A DNA stretch of 64,000 bases, from assembly GCF_016863275.1 (NCBI RefSeq), contig NZ_BOOO01000005.1:1-64000 (forward strand), in the 5' to 3' direction. Position 1 is the first letter of the stretch; every line of letters begins with the position of its first letter. This stretch comes from Planotetraspora mira. GTDB taxonomy: Bacteria; Actinomycetota; Actinomycetes; Streptosporangiales; Streptosporangiaceae. The notes below the pieces were generated by a model that saw nothing but the letters and a program-made list of their open reading frames with translations, did no database searches and was not told where the DNA came from. This document shows, piece by piece, positions 1,560 through 53,159 of the stretch. The position numbers and the translations under genes are program-made.

Positions 1560-3428
1560 GTGACGCCAGCACCGGAGGGCATGGGAGACCGCCGCATGGA
1601 GGCAGAAGGCGAGCTGAGCATGGCCCGCCTGGCCCTCGACGACGGTGAACGGCAGCACGCGGCGGAGCACATCGCGAACGCCCTGGTCTGCGATCCCACG
1701 CTGCCGGACGCCCATGAGCTGCTGACGGTGCTCACCGCACGCTCGAAGGACCGCCTCGACCTGTTCCCGGTCGAGCAGCCGGCCTTCCTCGGCGCGGTCG
1801 TCGCCCGCGCGCACGTGCTGGCCGCCGACGGGGAGCACGACGAGGCCCTCGGCCTGCTCGTGTCGGCTCAGTGCCATCAACCGGCGGGCCGGTGGGCGGA
1901 CGTCCCCTGGGTGCTCGACGGCGCGCTCGCCACCCGGGTGCCGCCGGACGACCTGTGCGCCCTGGCCGCCCGGCTGCTCCGGGTGCTTCCCGACCCGATC
2001 CCGCGCGACATGCGGCCCGGCGTCCAGCCGTACCTCTCGCTGGTGCGCAACTCGGCCGGTCTGTGGCCGGAACACGCCGGGATCCTGTGGGTCACGTCCG
2101 TGCTGTCCCGCCGCATGGAGTTGTGGGACGAGGCGCTCGACACGGCTCTGCGCTCGGAGAAGGCGGCCCCTTCGCTGCAGGCGTCGGTGGCCGTGGCGTA
2201 CGCCTACCGGAGCATGAAGCGCTGGGCCGAGGCCGAGCGGGCCTTCCTGCGCGCCCTGGAGCACGATCCCGGCAACGCCGCGGTGGAGACCGACATCGCG
2301 GAACTGCTCGCGACGAGCGGACGCGCCGAGGACGGGCTCGTCTGGGTGGAACGCGTCCTCGAACGCGAGCCGCACCAGGAGAACGCCTTCCCCACGGCGT
2401 GCGGCATGCGCTTCGCACGCGACGGCGACGTGCGCCACTTGATCGACCTCGCCGACCACCTGCGCGAACACCCCGACAATTCGCACGCCGAGGGCGTGCT
2501 GACGTCCTGGTCCCAGCGTCGTTTCTGGCTCGGCCCGGTGCCGGCGCCCTCAGAGTCGGTCGTCAACGTGCTGTCCCAGGTGCTGGAGGCGGAGGAGAAG
2601 CCGAGCGGGGGAACGTTGACCGTCTCGGCGCCGGAGCCGCCGAGCGCCCTGCTGGCCTTCAAACGCTCTCTCGCGGACTTCACGCTGACGATCGACGGCG
2701 TTCCCGACCCCGACCCGCGGTCGCCTGTTCCTGATGTGTTCGCGGCGGGCCCGGTCCGCTCGATCGGCAGAAGGGTGTGGGACTACGAGGGAACCGAGGC
2801 CCGGCCGTCGGCCGCCCCGCCGTCACCCGAGGCTGCCCGCGCGCTGCAGGACATCGCCCAGGAGGGATGGCCGCATCTCCTCGCCGCCTACGATCACGCG
2901 GTGCGCCTGTCGGGTCTGCCCCTCGACGACCTCCTCGGCGTTCTGGTCCACCCGCCGGCGCCGCTGAAGGACGACGCGGCCACCTGGCCGGAGTGGATCC
3001 GCTCGGTCCAGGCGTGGGCCTGCCTCGGCATCGCCCATCATCGGGCGGACCAGCCCTGGGCCGCCTCCGACCGGCGGGCGGTGCTCATCGATCTGGCATA
3101 CGGGCCGGAGGACTGGGTGACCGAGACGGCCCTGCTGGGGCTGGTCGCGACGGCGTGGGTGACGCCTGACACCCGTGCCGACGTCGCCGAACTGGTCGGA
3201 TGGCGCTTCATCGCGGCGATGGAGGCGAGCCGCACGCGCCCCGTCACCCTCCTGGAGTCGCTGGCGCTGCTGACGCTGGCGACCCCGGAGATGAATCCCG
3301 ACGTCCGGGCCCTGGCCTCACGAGTCCTGACGCCCGACGACGGCGATGAGCCGCCTCGCGCGACCGGGGAGATCAAGCCTCGCTGGTGGCGCCGCGTCGT
3401 GCCGCGGCGACGCCGTGGCGGGTCCTGA
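1560..3428 (+). CDS. Tetratricopeptide-repeat protein
   Basis: A 622-residue, mainly alpha-helical protein rich in Ala, Leu and Arg. TPR-like helix pairs are clear around residues 195-270 (WDEALDTALRSEKAAPS, WAEAERAFLRALEHDPGN, GLVWVERVLEREPHQ). The C-terminal 270 residues are helical and end in a very basic tail. It is probably a scaffold for protein contacts; no catalytic motif and no signal peptide are seen. The GTG start at 1560 is chosen because GAGGAG lies 5-6 bases upstream; later in-frame ATG codons (for example 1581) lack such a site. The partner is unknown. Confidence 0.75.
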   Translation: MTPAPEGMGDRRMEAEGELSMARLALDDGERQHAAEHIANALVCDPTLPDAHELLTVLTARSKDRLDLFPVEQPAFLGAVVARAHVLAADGEHDEALGLLVSAQCHQPAGRWADVPWVLDGALATRVPPDDLCALAARLLRVLPDPIPRDMRPGVQPYLSLVRNSAGLWPEHAGILWVTSVLSRRMELWDEALDTALRSEKAAPSLQASVAVAYAYRSMKRWAEAERAFLRALEHDPGNAAVETDIAELLATSGRAEDGLVWVERVLEREPHQENAFPTACGMRFARDGDVRHLIDLADHLREHPDNSHAEGVLTSWSQRRFWLGPVPAPSESVVNVLSQVLEAEEKPSGGTLTVSAPEPPSALLAFKRSLADFTLTIDGVPDPDPRSPVPDVFAAGPVRSIGRRVWDYEGTEARPSAAPPSPEAARALQDIAQEGWPHLLAAYDHAVRLSGLPLDDLLGVLVHPPAPLKDDAATWPEWIRSVQAWACLGIAHHRADQPWAASDRRAVLIDLAYGPEDWVTETALLGLVATAWVTPDTRADVAELVGWRFIAAMEASRTRPVTLLESLALLTLATPEMNPDVRALASRVLTPDDGDEPPRATGEIKPRWWRRVVPRRRRGGS

Positions 3429-3452
3429 CCCGCGACTCTGTACCGTGCGCTC

Positions 3453-4241
3453 TCACTCCGAGCGGCCACGCGGCCGCGCCGGCGGAGCGACGGCGGTCTG
3501 GTAGGCCCGGGCGATGCCGCCGGTGGCCGCCAGGAGCGGGTCGACCAGGCGCGGCAACTCCCGCACACGCCGCGACGAGACGACGATCCCCACCGCCGCC
3601 ACCGGCACGCCGTCCGCGATGATCGGCGCGGCCGCGGAGCATGAGCCGAGCGTCATCTCCTCATGGGTGACGGCGTATCCGCGGGCTCGGATCTGGGCGA
3701 GCTCCCGCGACAGCCGTCCCGGCTCGGTGACCGTGTGCGGGGTGAACCGCTCCAGCGGACGCGACAGGAAGGACGTCACGAACCAGCCGGGCTCGAACGC
3801 GAGGAGCGCCTTGCCGACGCCGGTGCAGTGCATGGGCAGGCGGCCTCCGGTGTGCGAGACGATCGGCACCGCGCGCTTGCCGAACACCCGGTCCACGTAG
3901 AGCACCTCGACGCCCTCGCGGATCGCCAGGTGGACGTTCTCCCCCGTGCTGCCGAACAGCTCCTGCAGCCAGGGATGCGCGACCGCCTGCAAGGAGTCGG
4001 GGGCGAGTTGCCCGAGCTCCCACAACCGGATCCCGATGTGGTAGCTCCCGTCCGCCGTGCGGCGCAGCGCCTGCCACTCCTCGAGCTCGCCGACCAGCCG
4101 GTGGACGGTGCTCAGGGCCATCCCGCTGCGGGCCGCGATCTCGCTCAGTGTCAGCCGGGAGTGATCGACGTCGAAGGCGTCGAGGATCGCCAGGACACGC
4201 GAGGTGACCGAACGTCCCGGATCGCGCGCGCCCCCGGCCAT
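3453..4241 (-). CDS. IclR family transcriptional regulator of the pob/pca genes
   Basis: A 262-residue IclR regulator. The N-terminal winged helix (SVTSRVLAILDAFDVDHSRLTL, IAARSGMALSTVHRLVGELE) is followed by the IclR effector-binding domain (GVEVLYVDRV, MHCTGVGKALLAF, EEMTLGSCSAAAPI). IclR proteins such as PcaR, PcaU and PobR control protocatechuate and 4-hydroxybenzoate genes, and this gene is divergent from pobA, so it very likely senses an intermediate of that pathway. The ATG at 4241 is used rather than an upstream in-frame start at 4304, which would run through the shared promoter and its dyad. Whether it activates or represses cannot be told from sequence. Confidence 0.88.
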   Translation of the reverse strand: MAGGARDPGRSVTSRVLAILDAFDVDHSRLTLSEIAARSGMALSTVHRLVGELEEWQALRRTADGSYHIGIRLWELGQLAPDSLQAVAHPWLQELFGSTGENVHLAIREGVEVLYVDRVFGKRAVPIVSHTGGRLPMHCTGVGKALLAFEPGWFVTSFLSRPLERFTPHTVTEPGRLSRELAQIRARGYAVTHEEMTLGSCSAAAPIIADGVPVAAVGIVVSSRRVRELPRLVDPLLAATGGIARAYQTAVAPPARPRGRSE

Positions 4242-4257
4242 CCGCCTCACCACCGAA

Positions 4258-4273
4258 AATCGTTCGGGCGATT
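4258..4273. promoter_or_regulatory. Candidate IclR operator between regulator and pobA
   Basis: Imperfect palindrome AATCG-TTCGGG-CGATT in the 89-bp divergent intergenic region. Size and position fit an operator controlling both the regulator and pobA. Assigned from symmetry and context only. Confidence 0.4.
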
Positions 4274-4330
4274 CCACTGAGTAGAAGCAAAGACTACGCT
4301 CCACCCCCCGCGCTCCCGAATGCTCGTCTC

Positions 4331-5503
4331 ATGCGAACCAAGGTCGGGATCATCGGAGCGGGGCCGGCGGGCCTGCTGCTCTCCCACCTGCTCCACATAC
4401 GCGGCATCGACTCGGTGGTGCTGGAACGACGCTCACGGGCGTACGTGGAGCAGCGGATACGGGCAGGCGTGCTGGAACAGGGCACGGTGGACACCCTCGT
4501 CGCCTCGGGGGTGGGCGAGCGCCTGCTCAGGGAGGGGCTGCCCCACCAGGGCATCGAGTTGCGGTACGGCGGCGCGGGCCACCGCATCGCGTTCGAGAAG
4601 CTGGTGCCGGGACGGGCCATCACGGTGTACGGCCAGCAGGAGGTCGTCAAGGACCTCATCGCCGCCCGGCTCGCGGCGGGCGGAGACGTCCGGTTCGAGG
4701 TCGACGACGTGGCCGTGCACGACATCGGCACGGACCGGCCGTACGTGACCTTCGGAGACGAGCGCCTGGACTGCGACGTCATCGCGGGGTGCGACGGCTT
4801 CCACGGGGTCTGCCGGCCCTCGATCCCCGAAGGGACGCTGACCGAGTTCCGGCGCGACTACCCCTTCGCCTGGCTGGGCATCCTGGCCAGGGTCACCCCG
4901 TCGGCCGACGAGCTCATATACGCGCGCACCGACCGCGGCTTCGCCCTGCACAGCATGCGCTCCCCCGAGATCAGCAGGTTCTACCTGCAGGTGGCGGCCG
5001 ACGACCACATCGACGCGTGGCCGGACGAGCGGATCTGGGCGGAGCTCAGGACGCGTCTGGAGACCGTGCCGGGCTTCACACTCGCCACCGGCGAGATCAT
5101 CGAGAAGGGGATCACCCCGATGCGCAGCTTCGTGGCCGAGCCCATGCAGTACGGCCGGCTCTTCCTCACGGGGGACGCCGCGCACATCGTGCCGCCCACC
5201 GGGGCCAAGGGGCTGAACCTCGCGGTGGCCGATGTGCGGGTGCTGACCGAGGCACTGGGCGCCTTCTTCGCGGACGGCTCGACCGGCCCGCTCGACGACT
5301 ACTCCCGCGCCTGCCTCACCCGGGTGTGGCGGGCCCAGCACTTCTCCTGGTGGATGACCACGCTGCTGCACACCTTCGACTCCGACGACGAGTACGGCAG
5401 GCGGCTGCAGACCTCTTATCTCGACTACGTGACCACCTCCGAGGCGGCGGCCACGACGCTCGCGGAGAACTACGTGGGCCTGCCGTACGGGGAGGAGGGA
5501 TGA
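4331..5503 (+). CDS. pobA: 4-hydroxybenzoate 3-monooxygenase
   Basis: A 390-residue FAD monooxygenase that hydroxylates 4-hydroxybenzoate to protocatechuate with NAD(P)H and oxygen. Visible are the dinucleotide fold G9-x-G11-x-x-G14, the substrate-domain segment SRFYLQVAADDHIDAW typical of PobA, and the second FAD motif GRLFLTGDAAHIVPPTGAKG followed by LNLA. Length equals that of Pseudomonas PobA (about 394). It is first in the pob-pca operon, overlaps pcaI by ATGA, and is transcribed divergently from the IclR gene. The upstream ribosome-binding site is weak, but the start fits the family exactly. Confidence 0.96.
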   Translation: MRTKVGIIGAGPAGLLLSHLLHIRGIDSVVLERRSRAYVEQRIRAGVLEQGTVDTLVASGVGERLLREGLPHQGIELRYGGAGHRIAFEKLVPGRAITVYGQQEVVKDLIAARLAAGGDVRFEVDDVAVHDIGTDRPYVTFGDERLDCDVIAGCDGFHGVCRPSIPEGTLTEFRRDYPFAWLGILARVTPSADELIYARTDRGFALHSMRSPEISRFYLQVAADDHIDAWPDERIWAELRTRLETVPGFTLATGEIIEKGITPMRSFVAEPMQYGRLFLTGDAAHIVPPTGAKGLNLAVADVRVLTEALGAFFADGSTGPLDDYSRACLTRVWRAQHFSWWMTTLLHTFDSDDEYGRRLQTSYLDYVTTSEAAATTLAENYVGLPYGEEG

Positions 5504-40895: not shown

Positions 40896-42872
40896 TCAGA
40901 CCTGGTGCACGGTGCCCGCGTAGCGCTGGGCGAAGCGGGTGCCGGTGCTCGCGCTGACGGTGAAGTCGTACCGGCCGTCATCGGTCCGCCACGTCGTCTC
41001 GGCGTGCCGGCCGGGCCCGACCCAGACCGTCTGCGCCTTGCCGTCGAAGTCGTTCGGCGTGATCGTGAAGGCGACCTCGGTGCCGCCGTCGTTGACCAGC
41101 TTCAGCTCGATCGAGGCCTTCTCCGGGCGCCCCATGTGCCGCAGCTTCGCCTCCACGGACGGCACCGCCACGTCGTCCTGGCCGTCCCGGACGACCGTGC
41201 CGGAGAAGCGCCGGACGAAGCCGTCGGCCCCCTGCACGGTGAAGTCGTACCGGCCGTCGGTCTTCGTGGTGTCCCACACGTAGGTGCGCGAAGAGCGCGG
41301 CGGGACCGTGAACGGCGTGCCGACGAAGGGCAGCGCGATGTTCGGGAGCACGGTGAAGTGGAAGCCGACCGTGCCGCTGTTGGTCAGCTTGCAGCTGACC
41401 TTGCCGCTCGCCCGGTCCACCGAGACGTCCGCCCAGGGCAGGTAGGGCAGCGGACGGTGCGGACGGTCCCCCGGCTCCTGTACGGCCATGGCCTGCTGGC
41501 CGGCCGCGGGGACCTTCACCCCGGGCAGCGAGTTGTTCGCGTCGGCCTTGGCCATGAGCGCCACCGTGTCGGGCAGCCGCGGGATGCTGTAGTCGGGCTT
41601 GCTGAAGTCGAAGCAGCTCGTCAGGTCGCCGCAGACGGTGCGCCGCCAGTCGGAGATGTTCGGCTCCTTCACCCCGGTGATCCGCTCGAGGAATCGCAGC
41701 ACCGAGGTGTGGTCGAAGACCTGGGAATTGACCCAGCCACCACGCGACCACGGCGAGACGGCCCACAGCGGAACCCGGCTGCCCAGTCCGATGGACTTCC
41801 CGCCGGCGAACTCGTCCGGCGTGCCCGGCTCGGGGAACGGCGGGATGACGTGGTCGAAGTACCCGTCGTTCTCGTCGTACATCAGCAGGAAGACGGTGTG
41901 CTTCCACACCTCGGGGTTGGAGAACAGCGACTGCAGCGCGGTGTTCACCCAGTGGGCGCCGTAGTCGGGGCTGGCCGCCGGGTGCTCACAGAACAGGTAC
42001 GGCGCCACCAGCCACGAGACCGTGGGCAGGGTGCCGTCCTTGCAGTGCTGGTCGAACGCGGTCAGGTCCCACTTCGTCATCGCGTTGATGTACCGCGGGT
42101 CGTCCTTCGGGAACGCGTGGAACTGCTTGAAGTACGACAGGGCGTTGTCGTCGTAGTCGCCGTTGCGGTCGTCCGAGCCGTCCGGGTTGTGGTAGACGCG
42201 CCAGGTGACGCCGGCCTCTTCCAGCCGCTCGGCGTACGTCGTCCAGTCGGCCACCGGGTTGTCCGTGACCGGCGTGTTGTCGGTCCAGGGGCCGGTGGTG
42301 CCGTCCACGCCGGGGCCGGCCGTGCCGGTCCACAGGTAGAGCCGGTTGGGGTCGGTGGGCCCGTTCTGGGAGCAGAAGTAGCCGTCGGCCAGGGTGAAGG
42401 CGTCGGCCAGCGCGTACTGGTAGGGGATGTCCTCACGGGTGAAGTACCCCATGGTCCGCTCGCCCTTGGCGTTGACCCACTTGTCCATGGCGCCGCCGTC
42501 GACGGCCGTGTGACCGGTGTCCCAGTCGTGCGGGAGGCCGCCGGCGTTCTGCGCGTTGTACTTGGTGGTGTCCATCCGGAAGGGCAGCAGATGCCCCTCT
42601 GGGCGCCCTCTGTCGGGCTGCTGGAACACCGAATCGCCGTTGGGGAAGACCAGCGCCTGGCGGTCGCCGAAGCCCCGCGCCCCGCTCAGGGTGCCGAAGT
42701 AGTGGTCGAAGCTGCGGTTCTCCTGCATCAGGATCACGACGTGCTTCACGTCGGCGATGCTTCCGTGTTCGTGGTCGGAGGCTTCGGCCGTGCCCGTCAT
42801 GGCGGGCAGGGCCGCCACCGCTCCGGCCGCCGCGGTTGCGCCGATGAAGGCGCGACGACTGATGTCACTCAT
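40896..42872 (-). CDS. Phospholipase C (phosphocholine-specific type), Tat-exported
   Basis: A 658-residue member of the bacterial phospholipase C/acid phosphatase superfamily. A Tat signal SRRAFIGATAAAGAVAALPAM comes first, then HVVILMQENRSFDHYFGTL (metal/nucleophile region), SQNGPTDPNRLYLWTGT, FLLMYDENDGYFDHV, and two C-terminal domains of the DUF756 type (each ending in a RRFSGTV/ RYAGTV-like strand). It would hydrolyse phosphatidylcholine or sphingomyelin outside the cell, feeding phosphate and choline. It follows the EEP-family gene by 22 bp on the same strand, likely one phosphate- or membrane-scavenging operon. Confidence 0.92.
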   Translation of the reverse strand: MSDISRRAFIGATAAAGAVAALPAMTGTAEASDHEHGSIADVKHVVILMQENRSFDHYFGTLSGARGFGDRQALVFPNGDSVFQQPDRGRPEGHLLPFRMDTTKYNAQNAGGLPHDWDTGHTAVDGGAMDKWVNAKGERTMGYFTREDIPYQYALADAFTLADGYFCSQNGPTDPNRLYLWTGTAGPGVDGTTGPWTDNTPVTDNPVADWTTYAERLEEAGVTWRVYHNPDGSDDRNGDYDDNALSYFKQFHAFPKDDPRYINAMTKWDLTAFDQHCKDGTLPTVSWLVAPYLFCEHPAASPDYGAHWVNTALQSLFSNPEVWKHTVFLLMYDENDGYFDHVIPPFPEPGTPDEFAGGKSIGLGSRVPLWAVSPWSRGGWVNSQVFDHTSVLRFLERITGVKEPNISDWRRTVCGDLTSCFDFSKPDYSIPRLPDTVALMAKADANNSLPGVKVPAAGQQAMAVQEPGDRPHRPLPYLPWADVSVDRASGKVSCKLTNSGTVGFHFTVLPNIALPFVGTPFTVPPRSSRTYVWDTTKTDGRYDFTVQGADGFVRRFSGTVVRDGQDDVAVPSVEAKLRHMGRPEKASIELKLVNDGGTEVAFTITPNDFDGKAQTVWVGPGRHAETTWRTDDGRYDFTVSASTGTRFAQRYAGTVHQV

Positions 42873-42894: not shown

Positions 42895-44661
42895 TCAGCC
42901 GCGGGCGGCGTTGAGGGAGAAGGTGACGACGGCCGCGGCGTGGTCGGACGGCCAGCCGTTGGCGGCGGTACCGGGCACGGGCTGCGGCCAGCCGGTGAAC
43001 AGGGAGTGGGCCTCGACGACCTTGAGCGATCCCCGGTACTGGACCTGGTCGACGCGGTCCTGCGGTTCCGCCTTCCCGCCCTCGTTGGTCGGCCGCACCG
43101 GCGACCAGGTGATGCCGGGGTCCTTCGCGGGGTTCGAGTTGACGTCGCGGAAGGCGTCGGTCAGACCGCCATGCTGGAGCGCGTCTGTGACGGGCCAGCG
43201 GAGCTTGCCCACGCCCCCGTGCGCGGAAGCCGTACGGGACGTCCAGTCCAGGTGGGACGGCGAGGCGAGGCCCGCCGCGAGGACGACCGGGACGTCGGAG
43301 GCGAGGTCGTGCTTCATCGCGGCCAGCAGGGCCTGAACCTGCTTGTAGCGGAGCGTCAGCTTCTCCGCGGCCTCCACCTGCGCCGCCGTCTTGCCGGCCG
43401 ACAACGCGTACGGGCCGTAGTCGGCCTCGTCGAGCTGGGCCGTCCACAGCCGGATCGTGCGGCGGCCGGGCAGGGTGACCGTGACCGCCGCGGCGGGCAG
43501 GGCGGCCGTGGGGGCCACGACGGAGCCGAGCGGATAGCGGCTGACGATGCCGAGGCTGCCGTCGCTCTGGTAGGACTGCCAGCCCAGCGCCTTGGCGAGC
43601 GCCTGTGCGACGGTGCCGCCGGTCTCCTGCAGCGCGAGGACGTCCAGGCCCTGGGTGAGCACGACGCGCATCAGCTTCTCCAGGAAGCCGTCGACGTGCG
43701 ATCCGCCGTCCCAGACGTTCAAGCTGGCGATCTTGACCTGGACCCGGTCGTCGCCCCCGCGCACCGGCACCTGAACCCTGAGGGTGTCGCTGCCGATCAC
43801 GCTGTCCTGCACGCCGACCACGAGTTGCCCCGGCGTCCTCAGCGGGAGGACGGGCGCGGTGCCGGTGACGTCTCCGCCGGCGGTGACGGACAACCAGGAG
43901 GGGCCGCTGATGCGGCGGAAGGCGGCGGAACCGGCCGCATTGCCCTCCGGTCTGATCCAGAGCCCGCCCAGGTGGAGGGAGACCGCCGAGCCGGCCGTCT
44001 GCGGGGCGGCGGTGACGGCGTCGACCACCGCGTGGGGGCGCGGGATGACCGGGCGGACGCCGAAGCTGAACGGGCTGGTGCGGGCGAGGATGCCGTAGCC
44101 GTCCTTGGCCAGCAGGTAGGCGGTGTAGGGACCGCCGCTCAGGCCGGAGGTGTCCAGGGTCATGTCGCCGGAGGCGCCGGGGGTGTACTCCCACACGATC
44201 GAGCCGCCGTTGCCGGGCTGCCGGTCGCCGTCGTAGATCCCGATCCAGTTGGTGGGGTCAGGGGTCTCGGTGGTCCAGTGGAAGGTCAGCTTGTCGCCCT
44301 CGAGCGGGGCCGTCGGCGACGTGAGCACGATGGTGTCGGTCTGCGGGCCGGCGAAGCTGAACGGGGCGCTCTGCGCGAGGATGCCGTAGCCGTCCTTGGC
44401 CAGCAGGTAGGCGGTGTACGGCCCGCCGCTCAGTTTCGAGGTGTCCAGCGTGAGGTCACCGGAGTCTCCGGGGACGTAGGCCCACACGGGCGCGGTGCCG
44501 GTGCCCGGCTTCCGGTCGCCGTCGTAGATTCCGATCCAGTTCTTCGAGTCGGGTGCGTCCGTGGTCCAGTGGAAGGTCAGCCGGTCGCCCTTCTGAGGGT
44601 TGGCCGGAGAAGTGAGCGTGACGGAGTTCCCGCCGGTCACGGCACGTGAGAGGGGTGACAC
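42895..44661 (-). CDS. Endonuclease/exonuclease/phosphatase-family protein with tandem N-terminal repeats
   Basis: A 588-residue protein. Two ~85-residue beta-rich repeats (each with GDxLTFHWTT, NWIGIYDGDR and AYLLAKDGYGIL) make residues 1-180. A bacterial Ig-like stretch follows, then an EEP domain: ASLNVWDGGSHVDG, LALQETGG (metal Glu), VVLAAGLASPSHLDW, DRVDQVQYRG and a final SDHAAAVVTF (catalytic DH). The canonical GDxN is replaced by AAGLAS. It may be a nuclease, sphingomyelinase or phosphatase. The GTG at 44661 with GAGAGG upstream is chosen; no classical signal peptide is visible from it, which is odd next to a Tat phospholipase. Confidence 0.8.
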   Translation of the reverse strand: MSPLSRAVTGGNSVTLTSPANPQKGDRLTFHWTTDAPDSKNWIGIYDGDRKPGTGTAPVWAYVPGDSGDLTLDTSKLSGGPYTAYLLAKDGYGILAQSAPFSFAGPQTDTIVLTSPTAPLEGDKLTFHWTTETPDPTNWIGIYDGDRQPGNGGSIVWEYTPGASGDMTLDTSGLSGGPYTAYLLAKDGYGILARTSPFSFGVRPVIPRPHAVVDAVTAAPQTAGSAVSLHLGGLWIRPEGNAAGSAAFRRISGPSWLSVTAGGDVTGTAPVLPLRTPGQLVVGVQDSVIGSDTLRVQVPVRGGDDRVQVKIASLNVWDGGSHVDGFLEKLMRVVLTQGLDVLALQETGGTVAQALAKALGWQSYQSDGSLGIVSRYPLGSVVAPTAALPAAAVTVTLPGRRTIRLWTAQLDEADYGPYALSAGKTAAQVEAAEKLTLRYKQVQALLAAMKHDLASDVPVVLAAGLASPSHLDWTSRTASAHGGVGKLRWPVTDALQHGGLTDAFRDVNSNPAKDPGITWSPVRPTNEGGKAEPQDRVDQVQYRGSLKVVEAHSLFTGWPQPVPGTAANGWPSDHAAAVVTFSLNAARG

Positions 44662-44707
44662 AGGTACGGTCCTCTCTGCCCGGACACCGCGTGTGCGATG
44701 CCGGGAG

Positions 44708-44735
44708 TGAGCAAGTTGTCTATATAACTTGCTCA
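44708..44735. promoter_or_regulatory. 28-bp palindrome in divergent promoter region
   Basis: Perfect 10-bp arms TGAGCAAGTT and AACTTGCTCA with an 8-bp AT-rich spacer (GTCTATAT), 47-74 bp upstream of the EEP gene start and 39-66 bp upstream of the divergent small gene. Its size and symmetry are those of a strong repressor operator; the inner TATATAAC could be a -10 element. The regulator is not encoded nearby. Confidence 0.65.
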
Positions 44736-44773
44736 AGTAAGCCCGCTCCGGACGGCGTGCTCGTGAACGTCGG

Positions 44774-45169
44774 GTGACGATTATCTTGGGACTGGTGGAA
44801 GAGAATCGGGCACGGCGGGTCGTGGACGCGCTTCGTGAGCGCGGCATCAACGGAACTCTCGCCAGAGTCGGCGTCTACCAGTTCGGGATTCGGGTGTCCC
44901 TGCCGGACGGCCGGGAGGCCGAATGGGACACCGACGGCACGGCCGGCCTCGAGGCCCAGGTCATGCGCAACGGCATGCTGGTGGGGTTCGTCCCCGTGAT
45001 CGAAGGGTCGGAGGACTTCGACGAGCATCAGGTCGTCGACGCCATCGCGCGGACCGACTACGACCAGCCCATCGCCAGGCAGCGTCCGGTGGCGCCGCCC
45101 CCCGGCGAGCCCCTGCCGCGTGTGGGCGGGCTCTTCAGGCGGTTCCTGGACGGCTTCCGCTACCGCTGA
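44774..45169 (+). CDS. Hypothetical 131-residue protein
   Basis: I do not recognise this family. It begins LGLVEENRARRVVDALRERG, followed by a short beta-rich part (RVGVYQFGIRVSLPDGREAEW), an acidic EGSEDFDEHQVVDAI helix, a proline-rich linker and a basic C-terminal helix. Cytoplasmic by sequence. GTG start at 44774 (another GTG at 44795). It is divergent from the EEP gene across the palindrome, so co-regulation is likely. A stem-loop follows its stop. Confidence 0.65.
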   Translation: MTIILGLVEENRARRVVDALRERGINGTLARVGVYQFGIRVSLPDGREAEWDTDGTAGLEAQVMRNGMLVGFVPVIEGSEDFDEHQVVDAIARTDYDQPIARQRPVAPPPGEPLPRVGGLFRRFLDGFRYR

Positions 45170-45171
45170 CC

Positions 45172-45220
45172 GGCGCGGCCTCCCGGCCGCGCCAGAGCAA
45201 GCCTGAGGGCAGGCCTCAGG
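45172..45220. terminator. Two hairpins between convergent genes
   Basis: GGCGCGGCC-TCCC-GGCCGCGCC (45172-45193) and CCTGAGG-GCAGG-CCTCAGG (45202-45220). The second covers the stop codon of the M1 peptidase gene. Confidence 0.65.
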
Positions 45221-46526
45221 GCAGGAAGGGCAGCCGGGAGTCGTACAGCCAGGTCCACAGGAACGTGTCGAGCGGCCGGGTGGCATAGCGCTGGACATGG
45301 TCGGCGAACGCGTCGGTGCTCACCACGCCGTGCCGATGCCTGGCCGTCCAGTCGCGCAACATCGGGAAGAACGCGGCGTCGCCCAGCGTCCGCCGCAGGG
45401 CGTGCAGAGTCAGGGCGCCGCGCTTGTAGACGCGGTCGTCGAAGATCCGGTCCGGGCCGGGATCGGCGAGCACCAGGTCCTGGGGCATGGCCGCGAGCCT
45501 GCGGTGCCACCGTTGTGCGTGCTCGTGCGCGTGATCGCCGCCCGAGTCCTCCGACCACAACCACTCCGCGTACGCGGCGAACCCCTCATGCAGCCAGATG
45601 TCGCGCCAGTCGGCCAGCGTCAGGCTGTTGCCGTACCACTGGTGCGCGAGTTCGTGGGCGACGAGCCGTTCGTAACGGCGGCGGCCGTCCACGTGGTTGG
45701 CGCCGAAGACCGACATTCCGTGCGCCTCGATCGGGATCTCCAGTTCGTCGTCCACGACGACGACGGTGTAGTCGCGGAACGGGTAGGGCCCGAACCGCTC
45801 CGTGAAGACGGCCAGCATCTGCGCCTGGCGGCCGAAGTCGTATCGCACCTGGGCGGCCAGCCGGACGGGGTGGGCCAGGTGCTGAGGGACCGGTCCCGGC
45901 AGCTCGGCCCGCTGGTAACGCCCGATCTGAACGCCCACCAGGTACGTCGCCATCGGCTCGTCCTGCTCGTACACCCAGGTCGTGCCGGAAGCCGCCCGGC
46001 GCTTGGACACCAGATGGCCGTTGGCGACGACCTGGTAGGCCGCGGCCGCGGTCACCGAGATCCGGTACGTGGCCTTGTCACCCGGCCGGTCGTTGCAGGG
46101 GAACCACGACGGCGCGCCGGTCGGCTGGCTGGCCACGAGGGCGCCGTCGGTCAGCTCCTCCCATCCGAGCCCGCCCCAGTGACTCCGCACGGGGCGGGGG
46201 GTTCCGGCGTAGCGGACCTCGACGGTGACCGGTTCGCCCGGCGGCAGCGACCGGCCGGGCGTGATCCGGAGCTTGCCGTCGCGGTGGGTGTACGGCAGGC
46301 GCTCCCCGTCGATCAGGACCTGGGTGACCCGGAAGACGCCGAGATCCAGCGTGAGCCGGTCAAGCGGCTCCACGGCCGTCACCGTGAGCCGGGCGACGCC
46401 GCCGAGCCTGTTGGAGGCTATGCGGTAGTCCAGCGTGAGGTCGTAATGGTCGACCCGGTAGCTCTCGTCGCCGTGTTCGGGGAAATAGGGGTGGTGCACG
46501 CTCACGTTCCGTTTGGTTCCCAGCAT
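45216..46526 (-). CDS. M1 family zinc metallopeptidase
   Basis: A 436-residue aminopeptidase-like enzyme with the M1 N-terminal beta domain (residues ~20-200), then the zinc site HELAHQWYGN (H291, E292, H295) and third ligand E314 in WLHEGFAAYAEW, with exact HExxH-x18-E spacing. The usual GAMEN exopeptidase loop is replaced by IPIEAHGMSVFG. The usual C-terminal helical domain is missing, so this is a compact form. No signal peptide. The ATG overlaps the stop of the Pls/PosA synthetase gene (ATGA). This coupling suggests that it trims or degrades the synthetase product, in line with the zinc peptidase that I recall beside poly-lysine synthetase in Streptomyces albulus. Confidence 0.88.
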   Translation of the reverse strand: MLGTKRNVSVHHPYFPEHGDESYRVDHYDLTLDYRIASNRLGGVARLTVTAVEPLDRLTLDLGVFRVTQVLIDGERLPYTHRDGKLRITPGRSLPPGEPVTVEVRYAGTPRPVRSHWGGLGWEELTDGALVASQPTGAPSWFPCNDRPGDKATYRISVTAAAAYQVVANGHLVSKRRAASGTTWVYEQDEPMATYLVGVQIGRYQRAELPGPVPQHLAHPVRLAAQVRYDFGRQAQMLAVFTERFGPYPFRDYTVVVVDDELEIPIEAHGMSVFGANHVDGRRRYERLVAHELAHQWYGNSLTLADWRDIWLHEGFAAYAEWLWSEDSGGDHAHEHAQRWHRRLAAMPQDLVLADPGPDRIFDDRVYKRGALTLHALRRTLGDAAFFPMLRDWTARHRHGVVSTDAFADHVQRYATRPLDTFLWTWLYDSRLPFLP

Positions 46527-49500
46527 CAGTCGGCCGGAGCCCACGCCACGATCGGGTTGCCGAACCAGCGGGTCTGGGACGGCACGGACTCGCCGCGCAT
46601 CACCAGTGACGCCGGGCCGACGGTGGTGTCCGCCCCGACCGTGGCCGCGGGCAGGACGACCCCGTGCGGGCCGAGCGTCGCTCCCTTGTGCAGGACCACC
46701 GTATCGATGCTCATGACCCGGTCGTGGAACAGATGGGTCTGAAGCACGCAGCCGCGGTTGACGCACGAGCCGTCGCCCAGCTCGATCAGGTCCGCTTCGG
46801 GGAGCCAGTAGGTGTTGCAGGTCACACCGCGGCCGATCCGGGCCCCCAGCGAGCGGAGCCACAGGTTCAGCGGGGCGGTGCCCAGCCACGGCTCGGCGAA
46901 CCACGGCGCGGCCAGCACCTCGACGAAGTTGTCGGCCAGCTCGTTGCGCCACACGAACGAGCTCCACAGGGGGCGGTTGCCCGCGGTGATCCGGCCGACG
47001 ATCATCCACTTGGCCAGGCTCGCGACCGCCGCCGCGGCGACTCCGGCGCCGAGCAGGACCACCCCGCCCAGCAGGGCCGCGACGCCGAAGCCGTACGACA
47101 CGGCGAGCTGTTCGAGGGCCGCCAGGACCAGCACGGCGAGCGCCACCGTGGCCATGGCGGGGACGATCCGGCACAGCTCGACGGCCGCGCGCGCGACCTT
47201 CAGCCGCCGGGGCGGGTCGTAGGTGCGGCTGCGGTCTCCGCCCTCGACCGTACGGCGGAGCCTGACCGGCGGCATGCCCAGGTAGGACGAGCCGACCTTG
47301 GCCTTCTTCGGGGTCGCGGACAACACTCCGACCAGGCCGTCCTTGGGGACCTTCCGGCCGGGGGCGGTCATCCCCGAGTTGCCGAGGAAGGCCCGCTTGC
47401 CGATGCGCGCGTTCGCGACCCGCAGCCGCCCGCCTTCCAGCTCGTACGGGGCGACCATGGTGTCGTCGGCGAGGAAGGCGCCGTCGCCGATGGAGGTCAT
47501 CGACGGCAACGCCAGGACGGTCGACAGCTCGACGTCACGCCCGATCTTCATGCCGAGGGCGCGCAGCCACGACGGCGTGAGGACGCTCGCGTAGAGCGGG
47601 AACAGCCAGACGCGGGCCATCGCCATCAGATGACCGCTCGCCCACGCCTGCCAGGCCTGGCGGCTGTGCACGGGATGACTGCCCTCGCGCAGGCCGACCG
47701 CGAGCAGCCGGACGCAGACGAAGATTGCCAGGGCGAACGCGGCCATCGAGACGAGCGTCGCGAGCGGCACGGCGTACATGGCGGAGACCAGCGGCGACGT
47801 GCTGTGCCGCAGGAAGGCGGCCAGGACGGCGAGGCCCGGGACCGCGGCGGCCACCGGGAGCAGGCTCAGGACCAGAGCGGACACGCCGTAGCCCGCGACC
47901 CAGCGCCGCGTGCGCGCGGGACGCTCCTCGGGCTTGCGTGCCTTGCCCTGCCGTACGGCGGGAGCCCCCGCCCAGCGCTCGCCGGACGGAACCGTGCCGA
48001 TCACCGCGGATCCCGGGGCGATCTGGGCGTTCTTGCCGATCTTGACGCCGGGAAGCAGGGTCGAGCGCGAGCCGACGGTCGCTCCGGGGCCGACGCGGAT
48101 CTCACCGACGCGGACGAGGTCTCCGTCGTGCCAGTAGCCGCTCAGGTCGACCTCGGGCTCGATGGCGGCGTTCGCGCCGAGCCGGAGCAGCCCGGTGATC
48201 GGAGGCAGGGAGTGGAGATCGGCGTCCTTGCCGATCCTCGCACCGAGCGCCCTGGCGTAGTAGGTGACCCACGGAGCGCCCGAAAGTCCGGGGACGCCCA
48301 GGCGGGCGGCGAGTTGCTCGGCGAACCAGAGCCGCAGGTGCACGTGGCCACCGCGCGGGTAGCTGCCCGGCCCCACTCCGCGCAGGAGCAGCCGGGCGCC
48401 CCCGGCGGCGAGGGCCATCCGCCCGGCGGGTGAGAAGAACAGCAGCCACCCGGCCAGCACCCATCCCCACGAGACGGTGGGAGCCCAGGGCAGGGAGACG
48501 ACGTTGTTGATCGTGGCCAGCGCGGTCAGCCAGCGCAGCGCGCCGATGGTGAGGAGCGGCAGCATGAGCGCCGCCTGCGCGACCGCCGCCCGCCGGGGCA
48601 TCGGGGTGACGACGCGGTCGGTGGTCGCGATCCGCCCGGTGTCCGACGCGGACAGACGGGCCGCCAGCCCGCCCAGCGTCGGATGGTCGTAGATGTCGCC
48701 GACGGCCGCGGCCGGATATTCGGCACGCAGCGCGGAGACCAGCCGGGCCGCGGCCAGGCTGGTGCCGCCCTCGGTGAAGAAGTCCGCGGCGGGGTGGTCG
48801 GGGGTGACGCCGAGGACGTCGCCCCAGCGCTCCGCCAGCCACAGCTCCGCGCCGGACAGCTCGACGTCCGGTGCCCTCTCCCCCGATGTGGTGGTGGGAA
48901 GCGGCCAGGGAAGCGCGTCACGGTCGATCTTGCCGGAGGTCCGGGTGGGCAGCGCGTCCACCGTCGCGAGGCGGGGGACGAGCGCGGCGGGCAGCGACTC
49001 CCTCAGCAGGCTCGTCGCCAGATCTTGGTCGAAGCCCTCGCCGGGGACCAGGTAACCGATCAGGAGCTGGTTGCCCGCGCCGGCCGTGCGGACCGCCGCC
49101 GCGGCTCCGGCGACTCCCGGGAGCGCCTGCAGCGCGGCGTCGACCTCACCGAGCTCGATGCGCCGGCCGCCCAGTTTGATCTGCTCGTCGGCCCGGCCGT
49201 TGAAGATGAGGCCTTCGGCCTCGGCGCGCACCAGGTCGCCGCTGCGGTAGGCCCGCTCCCAGCCGAGCGACGGAAGCGGGGCGTACTTCTCCGCGTCCTT
49301 GACCGGGTCGAGATAGCGGGCGAGCCCGACGCCGCCGATCACGAGCTCACCGGTCTCCCCCATGGAGACCGGCTCACCGTTACGGTCGACGACGGCCAGG
49401 TCCCACCCGTCGAGCGGGAGGCCGATCCGGACCGGGCCCTCCCCCGACATCCGGGCGGCGCAGGCGACGACGGTGGCCTCGGTGGGCCCATAGGTGTTCC

Positions 49501-50392
49501 AGACCTCCCGGCCCGGCACGGCGAGGCGCTCCGCCAGCTCGGGCGGGCAGGCCTCGCCGCCGAAGATCAGCAGGCGGACGCGGTCGAGCGTCTCGACGGG
49601 CCAGAGGGCAGCCAGCGTCGGCACCGTGGACACGATCGTGATGCCCCTGTCGATCAGCCAGGGCCCGAGGTCCATACCGGTCCGCACGAGGGCGCGGGGG
49701 GCGGCCACGAGGCAGCCGCCGTGCCGCCACGCCAGCCACATCTCCTCACAGGACGCGTCGAACGCCACGGACAGGCCGGCGAGGACCCGGTCGCCGGGGC
49801 CGATGGGCCGGTCGGAGAGGAACAGCCGTGCCTCCGCGTCCACGAACGCCGCCGCGCTGCGGTGGGTCACCGCGACGCCCTTGGGCTTGCCCGTGGACCC
49901 GGACGTGAAGATCATCCAGGCGTCGTCGTCCAGGCCGGGAGGTCCCGTACGGCCCAGCGGAGCGCCCGTGACGTCGAGCACCTCCCCGAGGACCGCGCAG
50001 ACGCCCGCCTCGGAGAAGACCAGCTCGGCCCGCTCGTCCGGGTCGTCGGCGTCGACGGGGACGTAGGCGGCGCCGGCCGCCAGGACGGCCAGGATCGCGA
50101 CATAGAGCCCGGCCGTGCCGGACGGGCGGCGGACCCCGACGCGGTCGCCGGGGCCGATGCCCACGGCACGCAACTCGTCCGCCATCCGGTCGACTTCGGC
50201 GCGCAGGCCGAGGTAGTCGAGACGGGTGTGACCGTCGTCGAGCGCGAGCGCGTGCGGATGACGCCGTGCCGTGCCTTCGAGGATGTCGATCAACGTCCTC
50301 GGCCGGGGAGCGGCCCCGCCCGACAGGAAGACGGCGCGGGTGTCCCACAGAAGATCGGCGTCGTGGCCTGGCTCGGCGATGAAAGGACGCAA
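46526..50392 (-). CDS. Pls/PosA-type single-module non-ribosomal peptide synthetase
   Basis: A 1288-residue membrane synthetase. Adenylation domain at ~30-500: FTSGSTGKPKGV (core A3), FDASCEEMW (A4), NTYGPTE (A5), RSGDLVR (A7) and TSGKIDRDALP (A10, K488). Carrier domain at ~510-580 with S545 in EGGTSLAAARL. Then about six hydrophobic segments alternate with left-handed beta-helix acyltransferase-like domains (VRVGEIRVGPGATVGSRS), the architecture of epsilon-poly-lysine synthetase. No condensation or thioesterase domain. Aligned by hand with GrsA, the pocket residues are D212 A213 E216 S255 I276 G278 T300 V308 V309 K488, close to the lysine code DAESIGSVCK. TTG start at 50392 has AAGGAG 7 bases upstream; upstream codons lack a site. 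Confidence 0.9.
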   Translation of the reverse strand: MRPFIAEPGHDADLLWDTRAVFLSGGAAPRPRTLIDILEGTARRHPHALALDDGHTRLDYLGLRAEVDRMADELRAVGIGPGDRVGVRRPSGTAGLYVAILAVLAAGAAYVPVDADDPDERAELVFSEAGVCAVLGEVLDVTGAPLGRTGPPGLDDDAWMIFTSGSTGKPKGVAVTHRSAAAFVDAEARLFLSDRPIGPGDRVLAGLSVAFDASCEEMWLAWRHGGCLVAAPRALVRTGMDLGPWLIDRGITIVSTVPTLAALWPVETLDRVRLLIFGGEACPPELAERLAVPGREVWNTYGPTEATVVACAARMSGEGPVRIGLPLDGWDLAVVDRNGEPVSMGETGELVIGGVGLARYLDPVKDAEKYAPLPSLGWERAYRSGDLVRAEAEGLIFNGRADEQIKLGGRRIELGEVDAALQALPGVAGAAAAVRTAGAGNQLLIGYLVPGEGFDQDLATSLLRESLPAALVPRLATVDALPTRTSGKIDRDALPWPLPTTTSGERAPDVELSGAELWLAERWGDVLGVTPDHPAADFFTEGGTSLAAARLVSALRAEYPAAAVGDIYDHPTLGGLAARLSASDTGRIATTDRVVTPMPRRAAVAQAALMLPLLTIGALRWLTALATINNVVSLPWAPTVSWGWVLAGWLLFFSPAGRMALAAGGARLLLRGVGPGSYPRGGHVHLRLWFAEQLAARLGVPGLSGAPWVTYYARALGARIGKDADLHSLPPITGLLRLGANAAIEPEVDLSGYWHDGDLVRVGEIRVGPGATVGSRSTLLPGVKIGKNAQIAPGSAVIGTVPSGERWAGAPAVRQGKARKPEERPARTRRWVAGYGVSALVLSLLPVAAAVPGLAVLAAFLRHSTSPLVSAMYAVPLATLVSMAAFALAIFVCVRLLAVGLREGSHPVHSRQAWQAWASGHLMAMARVWLFPLYASVLTPSWLRALGMKIGRDVELSTVLALPSMTSIGDGAFLADDTMVAPYELEGGRLRVANARIGKRAFLGNSGMTAPGRKVPKDGLVGVLSATPKKAKVGSSYLGMPPVRLRRTVEGGDRSRTYDPPRRLKVARAAVELCRIVPAMATVALAVLVLAALEQLAVSYGFGVAALLGGVVLLGAGVAAAAVASLAKWMIVGRITAGNRPLWSSFVWRNELADNFVEVLAAPWFAEPWLGTAPLNLWLRSLGARIGRGVTCNTYWLPEADLIELGDGSCVNRGCVLQTHLFHDRVMSIDTVVLHKGATLGPHGVVLPAATVGADTTVGPASLVMRGESVPSQTRWFGNPIVAWAPAD

Positions 50393-51787: not shown

Positions 51788-52501
51788 TCAGCGGGCGCGT
51801 TCCTTGGGCGAATAGCGGAGCAGGACGACGTCGCCGATCGGCCGCGCCTCGAGCAGCCGCATGCGGGCGAGGGGGCCCCCGGGATAGTCCGCGGGGCCCA
51901 GGAACCTCGGCGCCTGCGGCTGTCCCACCAGCAGAGGGGCGACGGCCACGTGCACCTCGTCCGCCAGGTTCGCGGACATGAGCTGCGTGTGGACGGAGCC
52001 GCCGCCCTCGACCATGAGGCGCCTGACGCCGCGGTGGCCGAGTTCGTCGAGGACGGCGGGCCACTCGAGTGCCGGCCCGGTGCTGACCACGTCGGCCAGG
52101 GATCCGATCGTGTCGAGCAGCTTCGCCACCGCGGAGTCGACCGTGAAGACCAGTTTGTCGCCCCCGCAGTGCCACAGCGCGAGGGAGGCGTCCAGGTCGC
52201 CGGAGCCGGTGACCACGACCTTCATCGGATATTCGGGCAGGCCCCTCGCGACCCGGGCGGCCCGGCGCTCCTGCGAGCCGACCAGCAGGCGGGGGTTGTC
52301 GCGGCGCACGGCCGTGGCCCCGAGGAGGATGGCGTCGACACCGGCGCGGACGTCGTCGACCCGGTCGAAGTCCAGCGCGTTGGACAGGAGCAGCCGCTCG
52401 GGGCCCGTGTCGTCCAGGTAGCCGTCGACGCTCACCGCGGCGGAGAGCAGCACGTACGGACGGGGGTTGTCCGCCTGGGGGATGTTCGCCGTGTTCGCCA
52501 T
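51788..52501 (-). CDS. RibD C-terminal-domain reductase (DHFR-like)
   Basis: A 237-residue protein equal to the reductase half of RibD, which uses NADPH to reduce the ribosylamino-pyrimidine made after GTP ring opening. Motifs: VLLSAAVSVDGYLDD (DHFR-like first strand), GVDAILLGATAVRRDNPRLLV (RDNP), VVVTGSGDLDA, and LMVEGGGSVHTQLM. The deaminase half of RibD is absent. The ATG at 52501 begins just before the first strand. It is 25 bp after ribA on the same strand, so it most likely works on the RibA product or a derivative, for riboflavin, F420-like or another pterin/pyrimidine product. Confidence 0.85.
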   Translation of the reverse strand: MANTANIPQADNPRPYVLLSAAVSVDGYLDDTGPERLLLSNALDFDRVDDVRAGVDAILLGATAVRRDNPRLLVGSQERRAARVARGLPEYPMKVVVTGSGDLDASLALWHCGGDKLVFTVDSAVAKLLDTIGSLADVVSTGPALEWPAVLDELGHRGVRRLMVEGGGSVHTQLMSANLADEVHVAVAPLLVGQPQAPRFLGPADYPGGPLARMRLLEARPIGDVVLLRYSPKERAR

Positions 52502-52526
52502 GGCTCCGGTCTTCCCGTTCTCGGCG

Positions 52527-53159
52527 TCAGCTCGCGAGTCCGGTGAGGGCGATGGTGTGTCCCGTACGGTCGATCTTCGCGCGCAGGTAGCGCATGTTGC
52601 TCTCGGTCGCGAACACCCCGGTGGGCACCCGGCGGCGGACGGCCACGCCGAGGCCGGATAACTGGCGCGCCTTGTCGGGGTTGTTCGAGAGCAGGTCGAT
52701 CGTGCCGATGCCCAGCACACCGAGCATCTGGGCGGCGACGGTGTAGTCCCGCCCGTCCTCCGGCAGCCCGAGTGCCGCGTTGGCCGCGTAGGTGTCCAGG
52801 CCCTCGTCCTGCAGGGCGTACGCGTCGAGCTTGTTGTACAGGCCGATGCCGCGGCCTTCCTGGCGCAGATAGAGCAGGACCCCGCCGGCCACGGACACGC
52901 GCTCGACGGCCTCGCGCAACTGCTGGCCGCAGTCGCAGCGCGCGGACCCGAACACGTCGCCCGTGAGGCATTCCGAATGCAGGCGGACCAGCGGGATCTC
53001 CCCCACGGCAAGCTCACCGAACACCATGGCGACGTGTTCGCCGCCATCGGCCAGACCCCGGAAGGTGACGGCCTCGGCCGTGACGCTGAAGCCGTCGGCG
53101 AAGCGCAAGGGGATGCTGACCTTGGTTCGAACGGCGGCTTCCGCTGGCGTGGAGGTCAT
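52527..53159 (-). CDS. ribA: GTP cyclohydrolase II
   Basis: A 210-residue stand-alone RibA that converts GTP to the 2,5-diamino-6-ribosylamino-pyrimidinone phosphate, formate and pyrophosphate. The zinc cysteines C64, C75 and C77 appear in HSECLTGDVFGSARCDCG with correct spacing; LRQEGRGIGLYNKL and RTGHTIALTGLA are further hallmarks. It is not fused to RibB, unlike many housekeeping actinomycete RibBA enzymes. Two copies of a 14-bp palindrome flank its promoter and a third lies before the marR gene, implying MarR repression. Confidence 0.95.
   Translation of the reverse strand: MTSTPAEAAVRTKVSIPLRFADGFSVTAEAVTFRGLADGGEHVAMVFGELAVGEIPLVRLHSECLTGDVFGSARCDCGQQLREAVERVSVAGGVLLYLRQEGRGIGLYNKLDAYALQDEGLDTYAANAALGLPEDGRDYTVAAQMLGVLGIGTIDLLSNNPDKARQLSGLGVAVRRRVPTGVFATESNMRYLRAKIDRTGHTIALTGLAS

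Follow-up and report, generated by a model that had tools for sequence, protein, structure and literature searches.

The opening 64 kb of a contig from Planotetraspora mira (NZ_BOOO01000005.1; genome of 9.03 Mb), hereafter the window, carries on its minus strand a pls gene (46526-50392), coding for a synthetase of the Pls/PosA family, followed directly by a gene for a two-domain M1 zinc peptidase of 436 amino acids (45216-46526). Comparison with other genomes shows that this pls-peptidase pair comes in two kinds: one, typified by Streptomyces albulus, whose peptidase bears an ENQ motif and a twin-arginine-type leader, and another, to which the window belongs, whose motif is PxEAQ-like and which has no leader. 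We consider it probable that the window's pair, of the widespread kind, consists of an epsilon-poly-L-lysine synthetase and a dedicated, non-exported peptidase, and serves internal turnover of the polymer. The gene pair itself is already known; the leaderless peptidase as its common form appears to be new: no description of it was found in the open-licence literature searched, which also had nothing relevant on a missing export route for the common pldII-like peptidase.

The window's synthetase is predicted to act on lysine. Its adenylation (A) domain is identical at 335 of 472 positions (71%) to that of 7WEW, the solved S. albulus epsilon-poly-lysine synthetase, and alignment to the sequence of this structure gives the same ten pocket residues in both proteins, DAESIGTVVK, the string that a first-pass annotation made from the DNA letters had obtained by hand alignment. 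The delta-poly-L-ornithine synthetase of Acinetobacter baumannii, PosA, resembles the window's Pls in family and architecture and differs from it in its pocket, DMEHNGTVSK, and in its single-gene operon; Met as against Ala at the second pocket position is reported to tune ornithine versus lysine use, and Phe there is described for diaminobutyrate and diaminopropionate synthetases (PMC10522769). The window has Ala, neither Met nor Phe, and other members of TIGR02353 (the NCBI model named for the Pls/PosA family) in the window's family, the Streptosporangiaceae, read DFE. L-lysine is the best-supported monomer, and since the window shares its pocket with Pls but not with the PosA and DFE types, the basic homo-poly(amino acid) proposed in the first-pass annotation narrows to epsilon-poly-lysine as the predicted product. 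It seems most improbable that this lysine-like pocket serves another diamino acid, such as beta-lysine or ornithine: pocket codes predict imperfectly and an epsilon-poly-beta-lysine synthetase is known (PMC10522769), but the match to 7WEW extends to ten residues of ten, the second-position Ala fits lysine, and a scan of 20 neighbouring frames revealed no recognisable aminomutase. Across the loci compared below, pocket strings were read by regular expression, with gaps in a few rows; L281 and L282 provisionally read DAESVSTVVK.

The pairing of pls with the peptidase gene is strong. Among the relatives listed, the peptidase lies downstream of pls on the same strand at 80 of 80 named loci, those nearest to the window belonging to Streptosporangium, Sphaerisporangium, Planobispora and Nonomuraea (Streptosporangiaceae). 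These 80 loci, which contain no S. albulus-type copy, were found with the peptide patterns ASCEEMW and WNTYGPTE (at least 591 relatives) and then selected for their similarity to the window, a procedure that in part accounts for the pocket they have in common. A phylum-wide sample of 296 genomes has a peptidase beside all 14 of its Pls-type genes. In 150 genomes of the window's family, the peptidase profile gave 28 matches at 589-717 bits, every one beside a Pls-type gene (pocket read in 26 of these loci), and the next-best M1 among the matches listed scored 424 bits. Over 158 Pls loci, six lack a peptidase in the roughly 1.8-2.6 kb that follow pls: three of S. albulus type and L277, L278 and L279, the most divergent Pls-type genes of a class-wide sample (59-65% identity), with none in about 2.5 kb. 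Genome G039, which holds a divergent lysine-pocket gene (L029/L169), gave no M1 match at E 1e-40. A search for a third conserved operon gene in the 80 loci found none, the commonest other neighbour family occurring at 15 of 80. No Pls-peptidase fusion was found in 20 loci; such a fusion would have fixed the peptidase's location. Strict pairing would also suit a cytosolic peptidase that guards against own or foreign polymer entering or re-entering the cytosol rather than recycling it, and epsilon-polylysine is reported to cross mammalian cell membranes and spread in the cytosol (PMC9606270). A guard against foreign polymer, however, would be expected without pls too, and 28 of 28 peptidases in the family sample adjoin it; we regard this explanation as quite unlikely.

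Two variations of layout were seen in the survey. The pls-peptidase gap reaches 0.3-2.1 kb in L093, L102 and L113, two Williamsia loci and one Tsukamurella locus. In one genus of the window's family, all four loci recorded (L159, L160, L161 and L162) carry a DFE-type synthetase, which probably makes a diaminobutyrate or diaminopropionate polymer, and about 780 nt downstream a different, signal-bearing M1, as if a synthetase-M1 pairing had arisen a second time.

We next turn to the peptidases. Export was judged by a script that combines hydropathy with a search for twin arginines (RR), with thresholds of 1.4 and 1.8 for the hydrophobic core. Of 142 loci examined, 135 hold both a Pls A domain and a peptidase (21 of the ENQ type and 114 others); the other seven comprise four without an A domain matching 7WEW at 1e-60 and three S. 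albulus-type Pls genes with no peptidase in about 2 kb. The 21 ENQ-motif peptidases belong with the A domains closest to 7WEW. All 21 have a start from which twin arginines precede an uncharged core of mean hydropathy at least 1.4 (example leader, MTRCSRRALIRGAALLPLAAT), versus none of the 114 others, the window's included, which read P-x-E-A-Q or close variants. Twenty loci added later from the class-wide and genus samples described below, selected because their open frames were long or their identity low, in one case because it was high, and so as to spread the set, behaved likewise: the one chosen for its 81% identity to 7WEW had a twin-arginine leader and ENQ, all 16 of the others with a peptidase had no leader, and the three most divergent had no peptidase. 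As controls we used 20 stand-alone M1 enzymes of the window's family, hand-picked, one per genome, from the lower-scoring profile matches; a signal-like core (1.82-2.85) was present in 20 of 20, versus 0 of the 28 Pls-linked enzymes of the family sample, five of which (L170 and L173-L176, L173 being the window) are also among the 114. The window's genome itself encodes four other short M1s (L124, L126, L127 and L128), in which hydrophobic leaders were recognised by eye, and a long aminopeptidase-N-like M1 (L123) with the motif GAMEN.

These data bear on an alternative in which the window holds an ordinary secreted system like that of S. albulus, its peptidase getting outside without a recognisable signal and protecting the producer. 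For S. albulus, pls and pldII are described as a coupled pair (PMC9223678, PMC4361855, PMC8117764), in line with the first-pass annotation, which places a zinc peptidase gene beside pls in this species; PldII activity is placed on the cell surface (review PMC9205021; also PMC9223678), and PldII repression is reported to lower tolerance and to give longer chains (PMC9223678). The window enzyme, moreover, is 49-52% identical to three enzymes of the S. albulus clade (49% to the copy at L227, a locus with 96% A-domain identity to 7WEW). With leaders in 21 of 21 S. albulus-type peptidases, signal-like cores in the 20 stand-alone M1s and none in the window's clade, we nevertheless consider a secreted system rather unlikely. 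Compared with S. albulus-type PldII, the window peptidase likewise lies directly after pls, with gene overlap, and shares the Pls-linked residues described below; it lacks the export leader, reads PIEAHG in place of PVENQT, and falls outside the clade. What is described for S. albulus, a peptidase that sits at the cell surface and protects the producer, appears not to carry over to the window enzyme, which belongs to a sister clade, shows no recognisable export signal and has a changed active-site motif.

The two kinds also separate by descent. The peptidase tree, of 82 sequences, resolves a twin-arginine clade (support 99) and a leaderless clade (95), and these two Pls-linked clades stand together apart from the stand-alone enzymes (92). 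The tree of Pls A domains, with 76 sequences, has a branch of support 99 that parts the window's kind from 7WEW, a difference between two synthetases that are otherwise alike in domain order, pocket residues and coupled M1 gene. Both trees are quick ones with Shimodaira-Hasegawa-like approximate likelihood ratio (SH-aLRT) support, and long outgroup branches were flagged by the tool in the A-domain tree. There the S. albulus kind does not form one clade (two changes); the window's kind may have branched off from within it, so that the S. albulus kind could be an older grade. Because its A domains form no single clade and the outgroup branches are long, we refrain from describing the S. albulus form as derived.

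The S. albulus kind is the rarer one in our samples. A class-wide sample of 394 genomes contains 95 with a Pls-type A domain, one of which is at least 75% identical to 7WEW. Among 392 genomes of the genus of G331, taken as Streptomyces because named Streptomyces loci group with G331 in the peptidase tree, 167 have a Pls-type A domain, 24 reach 75% identity to 7WEW and seven show two matches. All 24 loci at or above 75% are accounted for by 21 with an ENQ-type peptidase and three without a peptidase. The two-copy genome G691 carries both kinds of pair (L239 and L240), and the two can therefore coexist in one genome.

The catalytic residues are kept in the window peptidase. It matches PF01433 (98.8 bits) and PF17900 (55.2 bits) and has HELAH with its second Glu, Tyr367 and a Glu of the GxMEN type, bearing out its first-pass assignment as a compact M1 zinc peptidase; all 48 rows of one alignment, and the 105 rows of the window's kind, share His291, Glu292, His295, Glu314, Tyr367 and Glu267, and PIEAHG replaces GxMEN. 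The protein starts with MLGTKRNVSVHHPYFP and has no hydrophobic stretch and no recognisable export signal. Its structural model (predicted local distance difference test, pLDDT, 93.9) has a two-domain M1 fold with a template modelling (TM) score of 0.90 to the Deinococcus enzyme 6koz. The Deinococcus radiodurans two-domain M1 (6a8z, 6koz) is 34% identical to the window peptidase and, unlike it, has no link to a polymer synthetase in anything seen here. Tyr253, Pro265, Asn277-His278, Ala337 and others are common to both Pls-linked clades and not found in the stand-alone M1s, which suggests the same polymer substrate in both clades, although shared descent would give these residues too. Residue 268 (Asn or Ala) and its flanks tell the two clades apart. 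Net charge was also tried as a clade marker and rejected, as peptidase charges fail to separate the clades.

Both genes were found on the minus strand at the positions given in the first-pass annotation, with a different junction: where an ATGA overlap had been claimed, the sequence reads TGATG (46524-46528), in which the pls stop and the peptidase start (ATG, 46526-46524) share one base, as against the 4-nt overlap reported for pldII in PMC4361855. The pls frame, which stops at 46526, may start at TTG 50392 (1288 amino acids), upstream of which lies a ribosome-site-like stretch, GAAGGAGA, or at ATG 50464 (1312 amino acids). The product scores 735.8 bits against TIGR02353 (cut-off 423.1), which places it in the family, and is the sole match in the window's genome; five of five genomes of the genus have one match over the cut-off.

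The synthetase is organised as A-T-TM-C1-TM-C2-TM-C3, T being the carrier domain, TM transmembrane segments and C1-C3 hexapeptide domains. The A domain spans approximately residues 21-500 (48892-50332), from the 7WEW alignment, PF00501 and TIGR01733 (322.1 bits, cut-off 317.4). The carrier domain lies at about 48652-48841 (PF00550, 42.0 bits; GGTSL at residues 542-546 of the 1288-residue protein), and the membrane part, with transmembrane pairs and three hexapeptide (left-handed beta-helix) domains recognised by hydropathy, an AlphaFold model and conserved residues, at 46526-48592. A Pfam scan gave AMP-binding, PP-binding and Hexapep domains (one A, one T) and no condensation or thioesterase domain, in agreement with the single module described at first pass. 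The "six or so" membrane segments of that description also hold approximately. In the hydropathy of the single sequence, C2 and C3 are each preceded by a clear pair and C1 by one region, and two further peaks that fall within the A domain are taken as non-membrane; alignment-averaged hydropathy adds a segment at 633-670 and merges the last pair into one stretch. There are thus about six segments, the first pair weakest and the last merged, together with three acetyltransferase-like domains.

The AlphaFold model of residues 615-1288 (674 residues; pLDDT 88.5) shows, three times over, helices followed by a coil of short strands, which in each modelled repeat is typical of a left-handed beta-helix. 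Foldseek's best matches for this model in the PDB were serine, maltose and galactoside acetyltransferases; their TM scores are low (0.10-0.16 of the query), so that they back the local fold only, and a sequence search of the PDB with the same part gave weak matches to hexapeptide proteins. These fold matches agree with the description of C1-C3 as "acetyltransferase-related" in PMC8117764. In C3, His1220 and Asp1224 are kept in 41 of 41 Pls-type alignment rows and in four and five, respectively, of the remaining five, and His1220 is proposed, by analogy, as the catalytic base. Since membrane segments precede each of the three soluble repeats, all soluble parts of Pls should lie on one side, which would be the cytoplasmic one provided that the ATP-using A domain lies there.

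Variant synthetases were noted elsewhere. L169 (G039:C599) combines a lysine-type A domain (DAESIGTVV) with a C-terminal part nearer to non-Pls members, is 39% identical to the window's Pls overall, and looks chimaera-like in sequence. L181 (4392-6983) and L186 (4188-6698) encode carrier-TIGR02353 proteins that lack an A domain; at L181 the neighbouring gene (2031-4346) codes for an A-T protein, giving a split form of the synthetase.

Taken together, we propose that Pls would activate lysine as the adenylate and load it onto the carrier domain, and that the three membrane-tethered hexapeptide domains would join lysines through the side-chain amine at the cytoplasmic face, the same face on which the peptidase from the overlapping gene would remain. 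The GxMEN-type Glu would hold the alpha-amine and the open two-domain M1 enzyme could cut anywhere along the chain: because in epsilon-polylysine a free alpha-amine adjoins the scissile bond at every residue, an aminopeptidase-type site could cleave internal bonds, in keeping with reports that PldII acts in an endo-type manner (PMC9223678). The polymer would thereby be shortened, removed or broken down to lysine for reuse, either ahead of secretion or in place of it.

Heterologous work on Corynebacterium variabile, which like the window has a pls-peptidase operon, with a peptidase that may be of either kind (PMC8117764), is pertinent here. Its pls, cloned without the peptidase gene, gave epsilon-polylysine chains of 26 to 35 residues in Streptomyces coelicolor, whereas in C. 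variabile itself the same report found no epsilon-polylysine and no detectable Pls protein. By analogy, polymer from pls without the peptidase and none in the intact strain fits internal turnover. The chains made by Pls alone also speak against the peptidase being a missing release or length-setting factor that clips chains off the synthetase, an idea to which a Pls without a thioesterase and the overlapping genes lend themselves. Loss of PldII in S. albulus had no effect on chain length according to a review (PMC8506220), although the longer chains on repression reported in PMC9223678 point the other way; we judge a release function very unlikely.

Several observations weigh against internal turnover as we propose it. 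With Pls protein undetected in the intact C. variabile strain, a silent gene explains that result equally well, and Pls expressed in Corynebacterium glutamicum was seen as protein and gave no product (PMC8117764). The six of 158 Pls loci without a nearby peptidase indicate that the peptidase is not strictly needed. The hydrophobic core alone discriminates less sharply than its combination with twin arginines: at 1.4 it is present in 21 of 21 ENQ-type peptidases versus two of 114 (L093, whose start lies far upstream of the domain, and L190), and at 1.8 in only 13 of the 21 versus one of 114 (L093). Export without a leader is possible, and the motif change from Asn to Ala, with Gln to His in addition in the window, could mean a different substrate.

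A wider and more doubtful possibility is that in most actinobacterial carriers epsilon-polylysine is an internal, turned-over polymer, serving either as a lysine and nitrogen reserve or as a regulated polycation and both built and broken down at the inner membrane face by a two-gene cassette, rather than a secreted antibiotic, the secreted S. albulus system being the rare form. Cyanophycin is likewise made and degraded by its own synthetase and hydrolase. An internal polymer would account for the many carriers of pls that are not known as producers; the natural role of epsilon-polylysine is described as unclear (PMC9606270). The existing model of the peptidase rests on S. albulus, and our comparison suggests that S. 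albulus is the exception and that the common form keeps its peptidase inside. Were this so, the polymer would be sought inside cells, which secretion screens do not cover, and moving pls along with its own peptidase would be inadvisable for polymer production.

Around the pair, no Rfam family matched at the gathering threshold between 40000 and 56000. On one side lie a gene of the Exo_endo_phos family (42895-44850) and, adjoining it, a phosphocholine-specific phospholipase C gene (40896-42872, minus strand; TIGR03396, 696.3 bits, cut-off 580.25). On the other side, overlapping minus-strand frames at 51788-53159 give matches to GTP cyclohydrolase II and to the C-terminal domain of RibD, and may represent a side gene of riboflavin type.

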